Of a stretch of DNA of 64,000 bases, positions 300 through 28,884 are shown piece by piece. The translations under genes and the position numbers were made by a program. Below the pieces are notes generated by a model, which made no database searches, was not told where the DNA came from, and worked only from the letters and a program-made list of their open reading frames with translations. The first letter of the stretch is position 1. Each line of letters opens with the position of its first letter. Source of the DNA: Candidatus Anaerostipes excrementavium (GTDB lineage: Bacteria > Bacillota > Clostridia > Lachnospirales > Lachnospiraceae); the NCBI GenBank assembly GCA_019114985.1, contig DXEM01000019.1:1-64000 (forward strand). Reading direction: 5' to 3'.

Positions 300-3200
300 A
301 TGAAGAAAATGAAAAAATGTCTGGCATGCCTGTTGGCAATGACAATGGTACTAACCCTCTTGCCCTCCGGAGTGTCGGCGGCAGAGGATGATATGTCGGC
401 GGATAAAACGCCTGTGTGTACCTGCGAGACGGCCTGTACAGAGGACGCTATGAACGAGGACTGTCCGGTCTGCGGAGCCGAGGGTGCGACTCCGGAAAAC
501 TGCGGTCAATATCAGGCATCGGAGCAGGAAGGGGACGGCGAGAAATCGAAGACCTCTAATCCTGAGGATTCCGCTTCCCAGAAGCAGTCCGCTACAGAGA
601 AAGTACAGACTCTGATCGATGATCTGCCTACAGTGAAGGAACTGAAAGCGATGAATAAGACAGAACAGCAGACGGTTTATGCTGATTTACAGAAAGCCTA
701 TGATGCATACGAGGCTCTGTCCGATGCTGAAAAGAAAGAAGTCACCGGCGCAGAGATTATGGATGACCTGTTTGCCGTATTCAACGGAATGACGAATGTT
801 TTGGCGGACAGCGGCTTTACCGTTACGGGCGGCGCGAGCGGAGCGGACTACGACCTTTCCGGCAACACGCTGACCATCAAGTCGAGTAAGCCCCTAACCA
901 TCTCCGCTGGGACGGCAGATAGCCCCATAACCGGGCAGATTGTAATTCAGCCTGGCATCAGCGCCAACCTGACGCTGGATGGGGTGAACCTGAACGGTGA
1001 GGAAGCTGATTTACTTGGTAACCGAGCAAAAAGCGCGATTGAGTTGTCCTCCAATTCTAGCTTGTCGCTGACATTGAACCAAAACACAAACAACACCCTG
1101 ACAGGAGGTTCTGACTCCTCTAATGAATCTGGTGCACCAGCCATACATGTACCGGAGGGTAGAACTCTGACGGTTCTGTGTGCGAATCAAAGTGACAATG
1201 GCCATATATGCGGTAATGCTTGCGGTTCATTGTCGGCTACAGGCGGTTCATCCGCAACCAACAATGGTGGCGTTGGGATCGGCGGTGGAATTAGTGGTAG
1301 TAGTGGGCCGGGCGGTGGTGGACTCACCAGCGAGGGATGCGGCACGGTTCTTCTACTGGGAGGAAAGATAACAGTAAACGCTGGAAGCAACCAATCCGGA
1401 AGCAACCCCGCCGTGGACATCGGCGGTGCGGATAATACAGGTGGCGTTGGCGGCGCAGGCGGCACCATTATCATTCTGACCAATGTAACAAGTTCCGACG
1501 ATACGCTCACAATTGGCGGCGGAAACAGCAATGCCGGACAAAGCGCCGCCGACAACGGTGCGGGCATCAAGCCCGGTTCCGGCGACAATACCTACGAGGT
1601 CTACGGCAATCTGTCCCTGCCCGCCGACCTCACCATTCCCAAGGGCGTGACCGTGATCATCCCCAGCGGTGCCACCCTGACCGTGCCCTCCGGCACGACG
1701 CTTACCAACAATGGCACCATCAGCGGCTCGGGTAAGGTTACGGGCGACGGGACATTCACGAATCACGGGGTAGTCAATATCACAACCAACGACTTCAATA
1801 ACAACACGGTTGCCGGAGCGTTCAATATCACCGGCGGTTCATCAGGCACCGCCTATACCTACGCCGGCGGCGTGCTGACCGTCAAGGACGGCGCCAACCT
1901 CACCATTTCCATGGCGGACGGGGCCACCGACCCCACCAGCGACCGCATTGTGATCGCCCAGAACGCCACAGCGACCATCGCCCTGGATGGGGTGAAAATC
2001 AACGCACCGCAACAAACGAGTGCGATTGACCTTTCCTCAGGCTCCAAACTGACCCTGATTTTGCCCGCCGGCACAGAGAGCACTCTCGTGGGGGGAAACT
2101 GGGACAGCAGTGACCTTAGCGGAAACAGTTCCGGCTGTGCTGGCATCCATGTGCCCAATGGCGCTACGCTCAATATCAAGTGTTCTGAAACCGATATGCA
2201 CACCTGCTCGGAATCCTCCTGCGGCAAATTGTCTGCCACGGGTGGCTACTATTCTGCCGGCATCGGCGGCAATCAGAATGAGACCTGCGGTACAATTATC
2301 ATTGATGGAGGGATTGTGAACGCTACTGGCAGTATCAATGCCGCCGGGATTGGCGGCGGCGATAAGGGCAGCGGCGGGGATATCACGATCAACGGCGGCG
2401 TCGTAACGGCCAAGCTCGCCTCCGACGGCGGCGGTAACGGCGCGGGCATCGGCGGCGGAGCGGGTGCGGACAACGGCACATTCAGCACCAGCATTGATGG
2501 TACCACCGGCAACGCCGTGATTTTTGCCAGCAGCAGCCTTGCCGGAAACGAGATTGGCGATGACGAAGACACCTCCGACTGGAGCGGCGTGATCTTCCGG
2601 GGCAAGGAAGGCAAGGTATACGGCAATGTCACCCTGTCCGACAGCTTTGAAATCCCCGAGGACTACACCCTCACGATCCCCGATGGAACCAAGCTGACTA
2701 TCCCTGAGAGTGTTGCCATCACCAACAACGGAACAATAGATATGGTAGATAACGGCAAAATCGACCCGGAGAGCCGGATAAGCGGCAGCGGTGAGATTCG
2801 GCAGTTCTACACTGTGACTTTTAACACAAACGGGCATGGGACGGCTCCGGAGAATATCCTCGCTGTCAAAGACAGTAAGATCACCCAGCCCAATAAGCCA
2901 ACTGCAACGGGCTATACCTTTGATGGCTGGTATAAGGACAAGAACTGCACAACGCCTTGGACCTTTGACACCGATACTATAACGGAGAAAACCACCCTGT
3001 ACGCCAAGTGGCTGCTCAACACCACCCCTATTCTTCCCGGCACCACCGTACGCTACATTGTGCAGCACTACAAGGAGGGCGACAGCGGCTATATCTTGGC
3101 GGAAACGGAGTGTCCTGCCGGAGAGATTGGCGACACCGTCACCGCCCAGCCCAAGACCTACAGCGGCTATGTCTATAACGCAGAGAAATCCACTGCCAGC

Positions 3201-4712
3201 GGGACATTGAAAGAGCTCAAGGCCGATGGCGATATTGTAATCCTGAAGCTGTACTATGATGACAGCAACGCCCCCGAAGGCACGATTTCCGTGGAGGATA
3301 ACGAATGGGGAACTTTTACAGAAGACATCTCATTCCGTATATTCAGTAAAAATAAGTATGATGTAACCATTAACGCAAAAGATAATGAAATTGACGTTGC
3401 CAAAACAGAATATCTCCTGTCTGAAAAAGAACTTTCTAAAACGGATCTTGAAGATCAGACCGGTTGGACAGCGTATGATAAAAAATTCAGCATTGAGAAC
3501 GAAGGCAAATATATCATCTATGTGAGGATAACCGACAAGGCAGGCAATCAAACTTACATCAGATCCAACGGATTGGTTCTTGATCAAACGGCACCGGTGA
3601 TCCGCGGTATTGAGAACGGCAAAACCTACTGCTCCGCTGTGGAGGCCACAGTGGATGAGAAATATCTCGATAAAGTAACGGTAAACGGAAAAGCGGTTAC
3701 GGTTACGGATGGGAAGTTTACCGTCAGTCCGGCAGAAGGCGAACAGACCATAATTGCCGCCGACAAGGCAGGAAACGAAACAACATATACCGTGACTGTA
3801 AACAACGGACATCCTTGGGGAGAAGTTTCTTATGAATGGAAAAAGACGGAAGACGGTTATACGGTAACAGCAAAACGAACCTGCACAAAGAATGCCGCGC
3901 ATACACAGGAAGCCACGGCAAAGGCAGCCGGTGAAGTAACGGTAAAGCCAACCTGTACCGAGAAAGGCAAAACAACTTATACGGCAGCCTTTGATGCTGC
4001 CTGGGCAGGCAGTCCAACCAAAACGGTGGAAGATATTAATGAAACGGGACACGACCCTGATTCATCATGGACGCAGGAAAACGGAAAACATTATCATAAG
4101 TGCAAAAACGGCTGCGGCACACATCTTAACGAAGCGGACTGCTCCGGCGGGACAGCCACCTGTACCGAGAAAGCAAAGTGTACGGTCTGCGGCAATCCAT
4201 ACGGAGAAAAGGATGCAGATCATCATACAGGAGACACAGAAGTCCGTGACAAGAAAGAAGCGTCCTGCACGGAAAACGGCTATACCGGAGATACCTACTG
4301 TAAGGCTTGTGATGCCAAGCTTCAGACAGGTTCTGTGATTCCTGCCGCGGGACATACCTTTGAGTGGAAGATTGACAAAGAAGCCCAGGTGGGCACAGCA
4401 GGAGCAAAACATGAGGAATGCACCGTCTGCGGCTACGCAAAAGAAGCAGTGGAAATCCCGGCTCTGAAAGCAGAAGAATATCCACCGGTCGTAAAGGACA
4501 CCGACGGCGGCAAGGTGACGGTCACTCCGGAGAATCCAAAGGCGGATGAAAATTCCCCTCAGAGCGATCATGAAAGTCAAATGGATGGACACTCCCCTCA
4601 TGCAGGAGACGACAGTCATATGACACTGTGGCTTGCGGTTCTGCTGGCGGCAGGCGCCGGTCTTAGCGGCATGACAGCTTACAGCCGCAGAAAGAAAAAA
4701 CATCATAGATAA
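300..4712 (+). CDS. Large mosaic cell-surface protein with degenerate sortase signal
   Basis: The 1470-residue product starts with a typical signal peptide (residues 1-28). A Cys-containing segment (about 38-70) and a helical segment common in clostridial surface proteins (about 103-170) follow. Two related beta-rich, carbohydrate-binding-like units (about 172-300 and 505-690) are separated by Gly-rich linkers. Next come an InlB-type repeat with TFDGWY (about 835-905), a MucBP-like segment starting TVRYIVQHYKEG (about 912-985), Ig-like segments (about 990-1170) and Cys-pair repeats such as CTVCG (about 1180-1410). The C-terminus has PHAGDDS, a hydrophobic helix and RRKKKHHR. That is the layout of a sortase substrate of PQTGD type, but the Thr is replaced by Ala. 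The segment from about 0.8 to 3.3 kb is visibly richer in GC than its neighbours, and the 3.3-3.6 kb segment is AT-richer, so the gene is probably a recombinant mosaic. The ligand is unknown. The start is supported by GAAAGGA nine bases upstream. Confidence 0.85.
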   Translation: MKKMKKCLACLLAMTMVLTLLPSGVSAAEDDMSADKTPVCTCETACTEDAMNEDCPVCGAEGATPENCGQYQASEQEGDGEKSKTSNPEDSASQKQSATEKVQTLIDDLPTVKELKAMNKTEQQTVYADLQKAYDAYEALSDAEKKEVTGAEIMDDLFAVFNGMTNVLADSGFTVTGGASGADYDLSGNTLTIKSSKPLTISAGTADSPITGQIVIQPGISANLTLDGVNLNGEEADLLGNRAKSAIELSSNSSLSLTLNQNTNNTLTGGSDSSNESGAPAIHVPEGRTLTVLCANQSDNGHICGNACGSLSATGGSSATNNGGVGIGGGISGSSGPGGGGLTSEGCGTVLLLGGKITVNAGSNQSGSNPAVDIGGADNTGGVGGAGGTIIILTNVTSSDDTLTIGGGNSNAGQSAADNGAGIKPGSGDNTYEVYGNLSLPADLTIPKGVTVIIPSGATLTVPSGTTLTNNGTISGSGKVTGDGTFTNHGVVNITTNDFNNNTVAGAFNITGGSSGTAYTYAGGVLTVKDGANLTISMADGATDPTSDRIVIAQNATATIALDGVKINAPQQTSAIDLSSGSKLTLILPAGTESTLVGGNWDSSDLSGNSSGCAGIHVPNGATLNIKCSETDMHTCSESSCGKLSATGGYYSAGIGGNQNETCGTIIIDGGIVNATGSINAAGIGGGDKGSGGDITINGGVVTAKLASDGGGNGAGIGGGAGADNGTFSTSIDGTTGNAVIFASSSLAGNEIGDDEDTSDWSGVIFRGKEGKVYGNVTLSDSFEIPEDYTLTIPDGTKLTIPESVAITNNGTIDMVDNGKIDPESRISGSGEIRQFYTVTFNTNGHGTAPENILAVKDSKITQPNKPTATGYTFDGWYKDKNCTTPWTFDTDTITEKTTLYAKWLLNTTPILPGTTVRYIVQHYKEGDSGYILAETECPAGEIGDTVTAQPKTYSGYVYNAEKSTASGTLKELKADGDIVILKLYYDDSNAPEGTISVEDNEWGTFTEDISFRIFSKNKYDVTINAKDNEIDVAKTEYLLSEKELSKTDLEDQTGWTAYDKKFSIENEGKYIIYVRITDKAGNQTYIRSNGLVLDQTAPVIRGIENGKTYCSAVEATVDEKYLDKVTVNGKAVTVTDGKFTVSPAEGEQTIIAADKAGNETTYTVTVNNGHPWGEVSYEWKKTEDGYTVTAKRTCTKNAAHTQEATAKAAGEVTVKPTCTEKGKTTYTAAFDAAWAGSPTKTVEDINETGHDPDSSWTQENGKHYHKCKNGCGTHLNEADCSGGTATCTEKAKCTVCGNPYGEKDADHHTGDTEVRDKKEASCTENGYTGDTYCKACDAKLQTGSVIPAAGHTFEWKIDKEAQVGTAGAKHEECTVCGYAKEAVEIPALKAEEYPPVVKDTDGGKVTVTPENPKADENSPQSDHESQMDGHSPHAGDDSHMTLWLAVLLAAGAGLSGMTAYSRRKKKHHR

Positions 4713-4753
4713 AACAATACAAAAGAATCCCTGAGGAATTCAGAAATCAAAAT

Positions 4754-4790
4754 AAGGCGGCCCCAAAAGTTAGACTTTTGGAGCCGCCTT
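4754..4790. terminator. Bidirectional terminator between convergent genes
   Basis: The stem AAGGCGGC(c)CCAAAAGT / ACTTTTGG(a)GCCGCCTT has a three-base loop (TAG). It sits between the surface-protein gene and the convergent divIC gene. Confidence 0.8.
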
Positions 4791-4813
4791 CCTGAATCTC
4801 ATGAGATTCTTTC

Positions 4814-5116
4814 TTATTCTTCTTCATCGGCTTTTAAGAGATATTCTCCCGGGTACAGGAGTCCGAACTTCTCTGTCGCCATCTTCTCGATAAACTCTTT
4901 TGTTTTCACGTATTCTTTCTTGTCTTTTAATTCTTTCTTTTCCTTTTTTGCATCCCTGATATCAGCTTCTACCTGTTTCTCTTCTTTTTTCAGTTCCCTC
5001 GACTGCCTGTACAAGCCAAGATAAGAAACAGACATGGCAATCACAAACACCAAAACAAAGAAGAAAACGATCTTCGTCCTCTGGTCCATCTGCTTATTTT
5101 TTCTCTTTTTTTTCAT
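4814..5116 (-). CDS. divIC: Septum formation initiator, DivIC/FtsB family
   Basis: The product has a basic N-terminus, one membrane helix (about residues 17-36) and a Lys/Glu-rich coiled coil (about 40-80). It ends with the FGLLYPGEYLL-type tail common to DivIC/FtsB proteins, which bridge the divisome through FtsL. I chose the ATG at 5116 because AGGTGG lies five bases upstream. The ORF-track start at 5125 is a GTG inside that ribosome binding site. The 5' end overlaps yabQ. It is the last gene of the hup-rqcP-yabP-yabQ-divIC run. In many Firmicutes spoIIE follows close by, but here a surface-protein gene does. Confidence 0.85.
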   Translation of the reverse strand: MKKKRKNKQMDQRTKIVFFFVLVFVIAMSVSYLGLYRQSRELKKEEKQVEADIRDAKKEKKELKDKKEYVKTKEFIEKMATEKFGLLYPGEYLLKADEEE

Positions 5117-27580: not shown

Positions 27581-27700
27581 ATTTTTCCCTTTCCTTTTGT
27601 ATTATCTTATCACATGGAATCCAAAAAGAAACACTTTCTTCTTATTTCGACACTTTGTCTCTGTCTTTGGCATATCCTAAGAAAAAAAGGAATGATATCT

Positions 27701-27859
27701 ATGTTTGGCAATACACGACGCAGACCTGGCTGTCCGCCTTGTCCTCCATGCCGATGCGGCAGGGATCGATGGGATAACCGCAGAGATGATCGCAGGGACG
27801 ACCGCAGAGATGACCGACGAGATGATCGCAGAGATCATCGGCAAGACTGGAGATCATAA
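27701..27859 (+). CDS. Small Cys/Pro-Arg/Asp repeat protein
   Basis: I place the start at the ATG at 27701 (MFGNTRRRPG), ten bases after AAAAAAAGG, giving 52 residues. The earlier ORF-track start reads through unrelated sequence. After CPPCPPCRCG the protein is a run of DDRR units encoded by imperfect 12-bp repeats (GATGACCGCAGR-like), ending DHRQDWRS. Similar short Cys/Pro plus RD-repeat proteins occur in spore formers, but I assign no function. A terminator follows. Confidence 0.6.
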   Translation: MFGNTRRRPGCPPCPPCRCGRDRWDNRRDDRRDDRRDDRRDDRRDHRQDWRS

Positions 27860-27871
27860 AGAATAAGAAAG

Positions 27872-27894
27872 AATCCTGCTTTGCTGGATTTTTC
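27872..27894 (+). terminator. Short terminator
   Basis: AATCC(t)GC-TTT-GC(t)GGATT is followed by TTTC, directly after the small repeat-protein gene. Confidence 0.6.
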
Positions 27895-27920
27895 GCCTGC
27901 GGCGGGGCGCTTTAGTGACG

Positions 27921-28050
27921 TTTTCCACACCGCCGCAGTGCGTCTTCGTTCCACTCCGGTCGGCGCAGAGCAAATGTCCACCGGACATTTTGCGCCCTCG
28001 CGGAGCGTTTTATTTCATAGGATTGGAGTTTCCTATGAAATAAAAAAAAC
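27921..28050 (+). repeat. Dispersed repeat element, copy 2
   Basis: It starts with TTTTCCACACCGCCGCAGTG, which is identical to copy 3. An internal hairpin follows (GCAAATGTCC-ACC-GGACATTTTGC), then CTCGCGGAGC, and a final hairpin TTTATTTCATAGGA...TCCTATGAAATAAA with a run of A. It contains no ORF. Together with copy 3 it flanks the nuclease gene in direct orientation. The bases up to 28108 show only a small hairpin (CAGTCA/TGACTG). Confidence 0.7.
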
Positions 28051-28108
28051 AGTCATTTCTGACTGACAAACAATACGCAAAATATGCTTCTTTCTGAATT
28101 CAAAAATA

Positions 28109-28200
28109 AGAAGTTATCCGGCAGGCGTCGCCTCTCCTGCATCTCTTTTGACCCAAAGGGTGCGTGGCTGCAACGAATTTTACCACCTCAGATAACTTCT
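28109..28200 (-). ncRNA. Candidate structured RNA or elaborate 3' end
   Basis: A perfect 10-bp outer stem (AGAAGTTATC / GATAACTTCT) closes 72 bases. On the minus strand these contain three further small stems: GTGG...CCAC, ACCC-TTT-GGGT, and GCAGG...CCTGC. The result is a multibranch fold. It is followed by TTATTTTTG. It begins 34 bases after the stop of the nuclease gene on the same strand. I match it to no known riboswitch or ribozyme. A plain terminator with a large loop is the simple alternative. Confidence 0.4.
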
Positions 28201-28233
28201 CATTAATTTTATTATATCTAGATTATATAATGT

Positions 28234-28611
28234 TTATTCTTTTTTGTAAAGGATTGTTTTGTTTCTCAAATAATTCTGCAATCTTCTTTCACTTATCTTC
28301 CAACATGATATTATTGAATTTTTGTAATTAGGGTTATCACCTGAAGTACATATCCTTAATACTATTTGGGTGTATTCTTTTCCCGTCTTTATTTTTTTAA
28401 TGATAAGCCCTGTATTCTTATGTTTATCTTCCATGATAAAATCTGGTTCCCAAATAATCTCTGATAAATAATCAATAACTTCTTTATAAGCCTCTGGGTG
28501 TCTTTCCAATATATGTTGTATCTGATTGTCTGTAATGATGACCTCATCTGTTATAATATCCTTCGTAATGCAGCTGTAAATATCGCGATTAATTTTCCCT
28601 ACTGAATGCAC
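28234..28611 (-). CDS. PBECR-like (Barnase/EndoU/ColicinE5-RelE fold) nuclease
   Basis: The C-terminal part carries the pattern of phage-associated PBECR nucleases: ITDNQIQHILERHPEAY, then FIMEDKHKNTGLIIKKI, then YTQIVLRI and a final CWKISERRLQNYLRNK. I chose the GTG at 28611 (MHSVGKIN after AGAGGG), giving 125 residues. The ORF-track TTG at 28635 sits right at the expected transcription start. The gene is clearly AT-richer than its neighbours and lies between two direct repeats. No immunity-like gene is adjacent. RNase activity is inferred from the fold only. Confidence 0.65.
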   Translation of the reverse strand: MHSVGKINRDIYSCITKDIITDEVIITDNQIQHILERHPEAYKEVIDYLSEIIWEPDFIMEDKHKNTGLIIKKIKTGKEYTQIVLRICTSGDNPNYKNSIISCWKISERRLQNYLRNKTILYKKE

Positions 28612-28642
28612 CTGAACGCCCTCTTTTGTAATCAATAAATTA

Positions 28643-28670
28643 ATTATATCAAAATTAATCGCTTTTTCAA
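28643..28670 (-). promoter_or_regulatory. Promoter of the PBECR-like gene
   Basis: On the minus strand TTGAAA is followed after 16 bases by TATAAT, so the gene probably has its own constitutive promoter. Confidence 0.65.
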
Positions 28671-28695
28671 CTGATTACTTAAAAATTTCCCATTA

Positions 28696-28775
28696 TTTTC
28701 CACACCGCCGCAGTGTGGTTCTCGCGGAGCCGTTTTTATTTCATAGGATTGGAGTTTCTGTAAAATAGAAAAAAT
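28696..28775 (+). repeat. Dispersed repeat element, copy 3
   Basis: It shares the first 20 bases (TTTTCCACACCGCCGCAGTG) with copy 2, then TCTCGCGGAGC-like and TTTATTTCATAGGATTGGAG. The middle hairpin block is missing and the right arm of the last hairpin is degenerate (TTTCTGTAAAATAG). It lies between the nuclease gene and the tRNA gene. Confidence 0.7.
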
Positions 28776-28806: not shown

Positions 28807-28811
28807 TTTAG

Positions 28812-28884
28812 TACGCGATGAGGGGTTCGAACCCTCGACACCCTGATTAAGAGTCAGGTGCTCTGCCAGCTGAGCTAATCACGC
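28812..28884 (-). tRNA. tRNA-Lys (anticodon CTT)
   Basis: The 73-nt gene folds as a cloverleaf. The acceptor is GCGTGAT/ATCGCGT with two wobble pairs. The D arm has GCTCAGCTGGCAGAGC, the anticodon arm is CCTGA-CTCTTAA-TCAGG, and the T arm is GAGGG-TTCGAAC-CCCTC. The anticodon CTT reads AAG. CCA is not encoded. Confidence 0.95.

Follow-up and report, generated by a model that had tools for sequence, protein, structure and literature searches.

A PBECR2 nuclease gene and the skipping-rope RNA behind it: a probable toxin-antidote module of bacteria and phages

Does a small, AT-rich nuclease gene in the chromosome of Candidatus Anaerostipes excrementavium stand alone, or does it have a partner? 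The gene lies in a stretch of 64,000 nucleotides (nt; positions 1 to 64,000 of contig DXEM01000019.1, assembly GCA_019114985.1), here called the window. A sequence-only reading of this DNA had described it as a PBECR-like nuclease gene between direct repeats, with no immunity gene and possibly an orphan toxin. As far as proteins go, no immunity gene is present; however, positions 28113-28196 of the same segment encode, on the minus strand, a skipping-rope RNA (Rfam RF02924). The gene is not an orphan, because it has this RNA as a partner, and the partner is conserved alongside the PBECR protein family. We propose that the two probably form a two-part module, consisting of a PBECR2 endoribonuclease toxin and a skipping-rope RNA antidote. 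Gene and RNA co-occur in dozens of bacteria and phages, and for this reason the RNA most likely serves as the toxin's antidote.

The window's RNA matches the family model over its full length (positions 1-80 of 80; 63.3 bits versus a gathering threshold of 36.7; E 1.8e-14) and starts 37 nt past the nuclease stop codon, on the same strand. To count the linkage from the RNA side, we searched 200 genomes of the bacterial family and 391 of the class, which gave 109 skipping-rope loci with flanks, and located PBECR domains nearby with a hidden Markov model built in this analysis. At 68 of these loci a PBECR domain lies just 5' of the RNA on the same strand, mostly at a spacing of 17-92 nt; among all 109, none was found downstream of the RNA or on the other strand. 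The RNA-linked proteins span several divergent PBECR2 and PBECR3 subgroups. A phylum-wide replicate with 25 skipping-rope loci gave ten same-strand and two convergent PBECR genes. Counted from the protein, the linkage is nearly constant: of the 31 PBECR2/3 loci in the 200 family genomes, 28 adjoin the RNA. Named-genome loci fetched by protein similarity alone have it in 22 of 26 cases, the other four being broken or partial genes, and on viral contigs retrieved through a protein alignment it lies directly behind the gene in 43 of 45. Of the two viral exceptions, one (L223) has the RNA displaced by about 2.2 kb through an inserted open reading frame (ORF), and the other (L259) ends at the contig edge. 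Some loci appear in more than one of the genome sets. At L223, an antisense ORF of 623 amino acids (3012-4883, minus strand) separates the MuF-PBECR gene from its RNA.

Is the RNA then simply the tail of the toxin message? It could be no more than the 3' untranslated region (UTR) of the toxin mRNA or its terminator, serving to stabilize the message or end transcription and leaving the protein unaffected; its place directly after the gene and the U-rich sequence past its terminal stem are what such a role would predict. At 64 PBECR-linked loci, however, a near-consensus promoter stands immediately before the RNA: in the 70 nt upstream, the highest-scoring promoter-like pair averages 10.92 of 12.5, versus 8.54 (standard deviation 0.09, maximum 8.75) in 200 shuffled sets. 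Moreover, at two loci of a single genome (L266 and L287) the RNA faces a PBECR3 gene and has its own TTGACA-18-TATAAT, and because gene and RNA are convergent there, the RNA is not merely a toxin 3' UTR. Tandem RNA copies and lone RNAs that have no toxin likewise speak against a UTR, which we consider unlikely. Judged from its sequence, the skipping-rope RNA appears to be its own transcription unit.

The structure of the RNA is also conserved beyond what termination would need. In the window the RNA folds at -36.1 kcal/mol (z -3.54), beating all shuffles. Across 24 sequences the three stems and the loop-loop pseudoknot are 98.4% paired, versus 81.7% in shuffles, with both-side changes in 15 of 23 pairs, and the observed values were reached by none of 500 shuffles. 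Taken by itself, the pseudoknot helix has 97.2% pairing and both-side changes at four of its six pairs, and a separate loop-loop test on 67 distinct loop pairs agrees with it. Skipping-rope alignments show conserved unpaired positions as well; neither these nor the pseudoknot would be necessary for a terminator. The pseudoknot itself cannot be claimed as a new discovery, since the publication on Rfam 14 (PMC7779021) already depicts it.

A small RNA that adjoins a toxin gene and has a separate promoter could also act in the manner of type I antitoxins, pairing with the toxin mRNA to block its translation. Yet the longest perfect complement averages 7.05 nt for the toxin gene of the same locus versus 7.08 nt for the toxins of other loci, which is not the complementarity of a type I system, although the 5' leader of the long MuF fusions was partly covered in this comparison. 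The RNA moreover lies on the same strand as the gene, and its structure is conserved across divergent toxins. Pairing with the message is thus very unlikely. Alternatively, the RNA could switch on the nuclease as a cofactor or direct it as a guide, the pair being an RNA-guided effector. Tight linkage would be expected equally in that case, and prophage RNase-type proteins with a neighboring noncoding RNA are known (AbiF; PMC12373285). The alignments, however, show no variable guide segment. Arrays of two or three tandem RNAs occur at ten loci (L211, L198, L212, L218, L219, L226, L256, L028, L031, and L050), and where inspected the copies differ in subtype; such differing RNAs behind one toxin do not suggest a guide. 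In addition, at least eight lone RNAs match the PBECR-linked promoter and/or the stretch of last toxin codons in register, the toxin having been lost, and RNAs retained in this way suit an antidote better. We regard a guide as improbable. At L031, a mixed RNA pair has no toxin gene.

The other half of the proposed pair, the nuclease, is identified by its domain. As the sequence-only reading had surmised, the window protein is PBECR-like: it matches PBECR2 (Pfam PF18810) at E 4.6e-11, with 43.4 bits versus the Pfam cut-off of 27.1, and also PBECR3 at E 1.5e-7. The longest version of the ORF occupies 28234-28635 on the minus strand (133 amino acids, TTG start at 28635); the GTG at 28611 is the likelier start, since homologues begin there, with V/M-H-S/T-V/I-G-K, and the ribosome site AAAGAGGG precedes it. 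The promoter reported earlier for the gene is found as a promoter-like site. In the part of PMC5512222 that deals with these domains, active PBECR domains are defined by a His in an N-terminal helix and a C-terminal Thr or Ser; in the window protein these are H41 (helix 36-45) and S107, both invariant among 18 homologues. An AlphaFold2 model of the protein has a mean predicted local distance difference test score (pLDDT) of 91.3 and a predicted template modeling score (pTM) of 0.84. From its family membership the protein is predicted to be an RNase. A PDB sequence search with it gave nothing meaningful, PADLOC gave no match, and the phage GenBank collection held one protein match only.

The phage loci suggest how such a nuclease might be used. 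The PBECR domain forms the end of a long ORF at about 31 of 44 viral loci; four of these ORFs were scanned against Pfam, and all are Phage_min_cap2 or Phage_Mu_F fusions. At L243 and L220, portal or capsid genes adjoin the fusion gene. The RNA lies between the MuF or minor-capsid gene and the scaffold or capsid genes, a position that would also fit a role in head assembly or packaging, like that of a packaging RNA, with the PBECR link following from the location in the head cluster. However, none of 52 MuF (PF04233) matches in the same 200 genomes, compared by position, adjoins a skipping-rope RNA, and free-standing PBECR genes outside head clusters, including that of the window, still have one; a packaging role therefore seems extremely unlikely. 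In two relatives within Anaerostipes, both the PBECR gene and the RNA are truncated and lie beside phage head-like genes (assigned by reading ORFs). At L117 and L094 there is a related C-terminal domain that has no Pfam match, fused to Phage_min_cap2 in the former and a separate ORF in the latter; in both it is followed by a small ORF, a candidate immunity protein gene, and then by a skipping-rope RNA.

In the toxin-antidote module that we propose, the PBECR2 protein would be a metal-independent endoribonuclease of the BECR fold. The RNA would be transcribed from a separate promoter directly after the gene and, through its pseudoknotted structure, would bind the enzyme and block it, like the RNA antitoxins of type III. 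In phages, this nuclease is usually the C-terminal part of a MuF or minor-capsid protein. Virions would deliver the toxin to the next host, and the RNA would protect both the lysogen and the phage-producing cell. In the window, a free-standing copy of the unit would have inserted into the Anaerostipes chromosome next to tRNA-Lys. On balance we also lean toward a broader view, in which skipping-rope RNAs are RNA immunity factors, each neutralizing a PBECR RNase, in most cases one delivered by the phage head on MuF. The toxin would be unrelated to those of known type III systems, this would be the first RNA immunity of the polymorphic-toxin type, and lone RNAs and mixed arrays would be stockpiled immunity directed at several different phage toxins. 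If this is true, phages deliver RNases by injection while an RNA safeguards their own hosts, and bacterial chromosomes retain such RNAs as immunity.

Several observations weigh against an antidote for PBECR toxins. Depending on the set, 38% to 52% of skipping-rope RNAs have no adjoining PBECR; some of these are lone or decayed RNAs, some are weak RNA matches, and a few are near other toxin or antitoxin genes. Five with weak RNA scores (L054, L056, L057, L058, and L118) are probably false RNA matches, which lowers the forward linkage percentage. Some skipping-rope RNAs are found beside type II or type III toxin genes or PBECR-less phage genes. Conversely, G084 and G177 contain intact PBECR-family genes with no RNA. 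The correlated divergence of RNA and protein (Mantel r 0.78), which speaks for the module, would also be expected from linkage alone. The fold check that had been suggested for the protein yielded a confident model, but a Foldseek search of that model against the PDB gave no confident match, the best being a chain of a contact-dependent inhibition (CDI) system (E 0.14, TM-score 0.41-0.45). Finally, in the canonical type III layout the RNA precedes the toxin and one promoter serves both, whereas here the RNA is behind the toxin and has its own.

Some individual loci may be described here. At L015 (G131:C13) a type III system of the CptIN kind looks complete, and a skipping-rope RNA follows its toxin gene at a distance of 19 nt. 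We rejected this RNA as the CptN antitoxin: because CptN has its own structured leader RNA and a terminator-like hairpin upstream, the skipping-rope RNA is probably a mere neighbor. At L098, L054, L024, L030, and L075, skipping-rope or weak RNA matches lie close behind toxin or antitoxin genes of type II systems (ParE, PIN_3, HicB-like, RHH or CopG-like). The intact gene at G084:C4 (L127) is a PBECR3 gene with no detectable skipping-rope RNA.

How does the module compare with known systems? No paper linking PBECR with skipping-rope was found in the literature searched, outside which lay the key description of the RNA family, published by Weinberg et al. in 2017 in Nucleic Acids Research (NAR). 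The window RNA agrees with RF02924 in being full-length and in having the pseudoknot of PMC7779021; what differs is that the family here gains a protein partner, neither a partner nor a function having been found in the searched literature. An RNA family would thereby gain a partner and a testable function, and a predicted RNase family that had no antidote would gain one.

Among the closest known systems are the type III systems (ToxIN, CptIN, TenpIN, and AbiQ), which likewise combine a predicted endoribonuclease with a pseudoknotted noncoding RNA, sometimes in tandem, on mobile DNA. Type III antitoxins are pseudoknotted, and in their canonical operon the RNA comes before the toxin under one promoter (PMC5086642). 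In contrast, the window toxin is of the PBECR/BECR kind, with no Pfam or NCBIfam match to the ToxN or CptN families. Skipping-rope RNA lies behind the gene or convergent to it, has its own promoter, and is usually a single copy of about 70-110 nt, tandem copies being of different subtypes. Upstream RNA repeats under one promoter, with a terminator between repeats and toxin, are not what the window unit has. Because its RNA is downstream with its own promoter, and convergent in one genome, we do not count the unit among type III systems; the simplest reading is that the module would work like type III but stand outside it by layout and toxin family.

The phage polyvalent proteins of Iyer et al. 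(2017; PMC5512222) share the same Pfam families, MuF- or portal-linked fusions, and the helix His and C-terminal Ser; an RNA partner, however, is not mentioned in that paper's treatment of PBECR domains, which proposes cleavage of host or phage mRNA, or of CRISPR RNA. The MuF polymorphic toxins of Jamet et al. (2017; PMC5576092) similarly have a C-terminal toxin domain on a MuF protein with an adjacent portal gene, in phages of gut Firmicutes. Their predicted immunity is a small downstream protein ORF, whereas here the downstream element is an RNA, and the window gene, at 125-133 amino acids, is free-standing, with no MuF or minor-capsid N-terminal part. AbiF/Abi_2 (PMC12373285) is also a prophage toxin controlled by a neighboring noncoding RNA, but it belongs to another protein family, linked to Cas13 ancestors, and has another RNA.

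The unit appears to have been acquired at this site. In two members of the genus, G583 and G584, about 34 bp separate the DUF1848 gene from the tRNA-Lys region, and the segment between them in the window is therefore absent there; by this comparison it would be an insertion here, or was lost in those two. The suggestion of a small acquired unit in the sequence-only reading is thus borne out by clean empty sites, rather than the gene being fixed at this locus across the genus. Among 11 genus members the RNA was found only in the window's genome, in two copies, the second being in a diverged PBECR and skipping-rope unit (G000:C33:34661-35244; L012) whose toxin promoter region is 85% conserved. 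Features of the locus are collected in Table 1.

Table 1. Features of the PBECR2 and skipping-rope locus (window coordinates)
Feature	Position	Strand	Basis or remark
Segment absent in relatives G583 and G584	27582-28768		Comparison with relatives
Dispersed genomic repeat, left copy, palindrome at its end	27917-28048		Repeat search and genome comparison
Skipping-rope RNA with extended terminal stem and U-rich 3' end	28105-28204	-	Rfam core 28113-28196
Pseudoknot 3' side GCGACG, hairpin 3 loop	28126-28131	-	Covarying helix 3
Pseudoknot 5' side CGTTGC, hairpin 1 loop	28170-28175	-	Covarying helix 3 and loop-loop test
RNA promoter TTTACA-17-TATAAT, -35 inside last toxin codons (LYKKE-stop)	28222-28250	-	Promoter scan
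PBECR2 gene (predicted toxin), likely start GTG 28611, 125 amino acids	28234-28611	-	Pfam PF18810, homologue starts
Toxin promoter-like site TTGAAA-16-TATAAT	28643-28670	-	85% match in the genome's second unit
Dispersed genomic repeat, right copy, shortened internally	28696-28775		Repeat search and genome comparison
tRNA-Lys(CTT), conserved neighbor	28811-28884	-	Kept in relatives compared

Other features noted earlier are also present. The nuclease stretch has a GC content of 0.32, versus about 0.42-0.47 to its left, and it adjoins the tRNA-Lys(CTT) gene. We rejected this tRNA gene as an attachment site, as the repeat search gave no duplicated tRNA end and the unit contains no integrase-sized ORF. 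A small plus-strand ORF at 27700-27859, with a Cys/Pro-rich start and an Arg/Asp-rich repeat tail, is missing too from the empty site of the relatives.

The direct repeats around the gene are real: the 20 bases TTTTCCACACCGCCGCAGTG occur in 100% identical copies at 27921-27940 and 28696-28715, and the 25-base block TTTTATTTCATAGGATTGGAGTTTC is exact at 28008-28032 and 28734-28758. Their reading as borders of a mobile unit is not supported, because they belong to a dispersed repeat that is mostly found without the nuclease gene, and for the same reason target-site duplications or element ends were rejected. The left copy has about 40 further matching places in the source genome, and the palindrome of the repeat has 36 copies there versus 2 for a reversed control. 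These repeats may play a role in recombination, but they do not define the unit. The palindrome lies at 28008-28048 in the window and at 35 other sites of the genome, with arms TTTCATAGGA and TCCTATGAAA, and several members of the genus have the palindromic repeat too.
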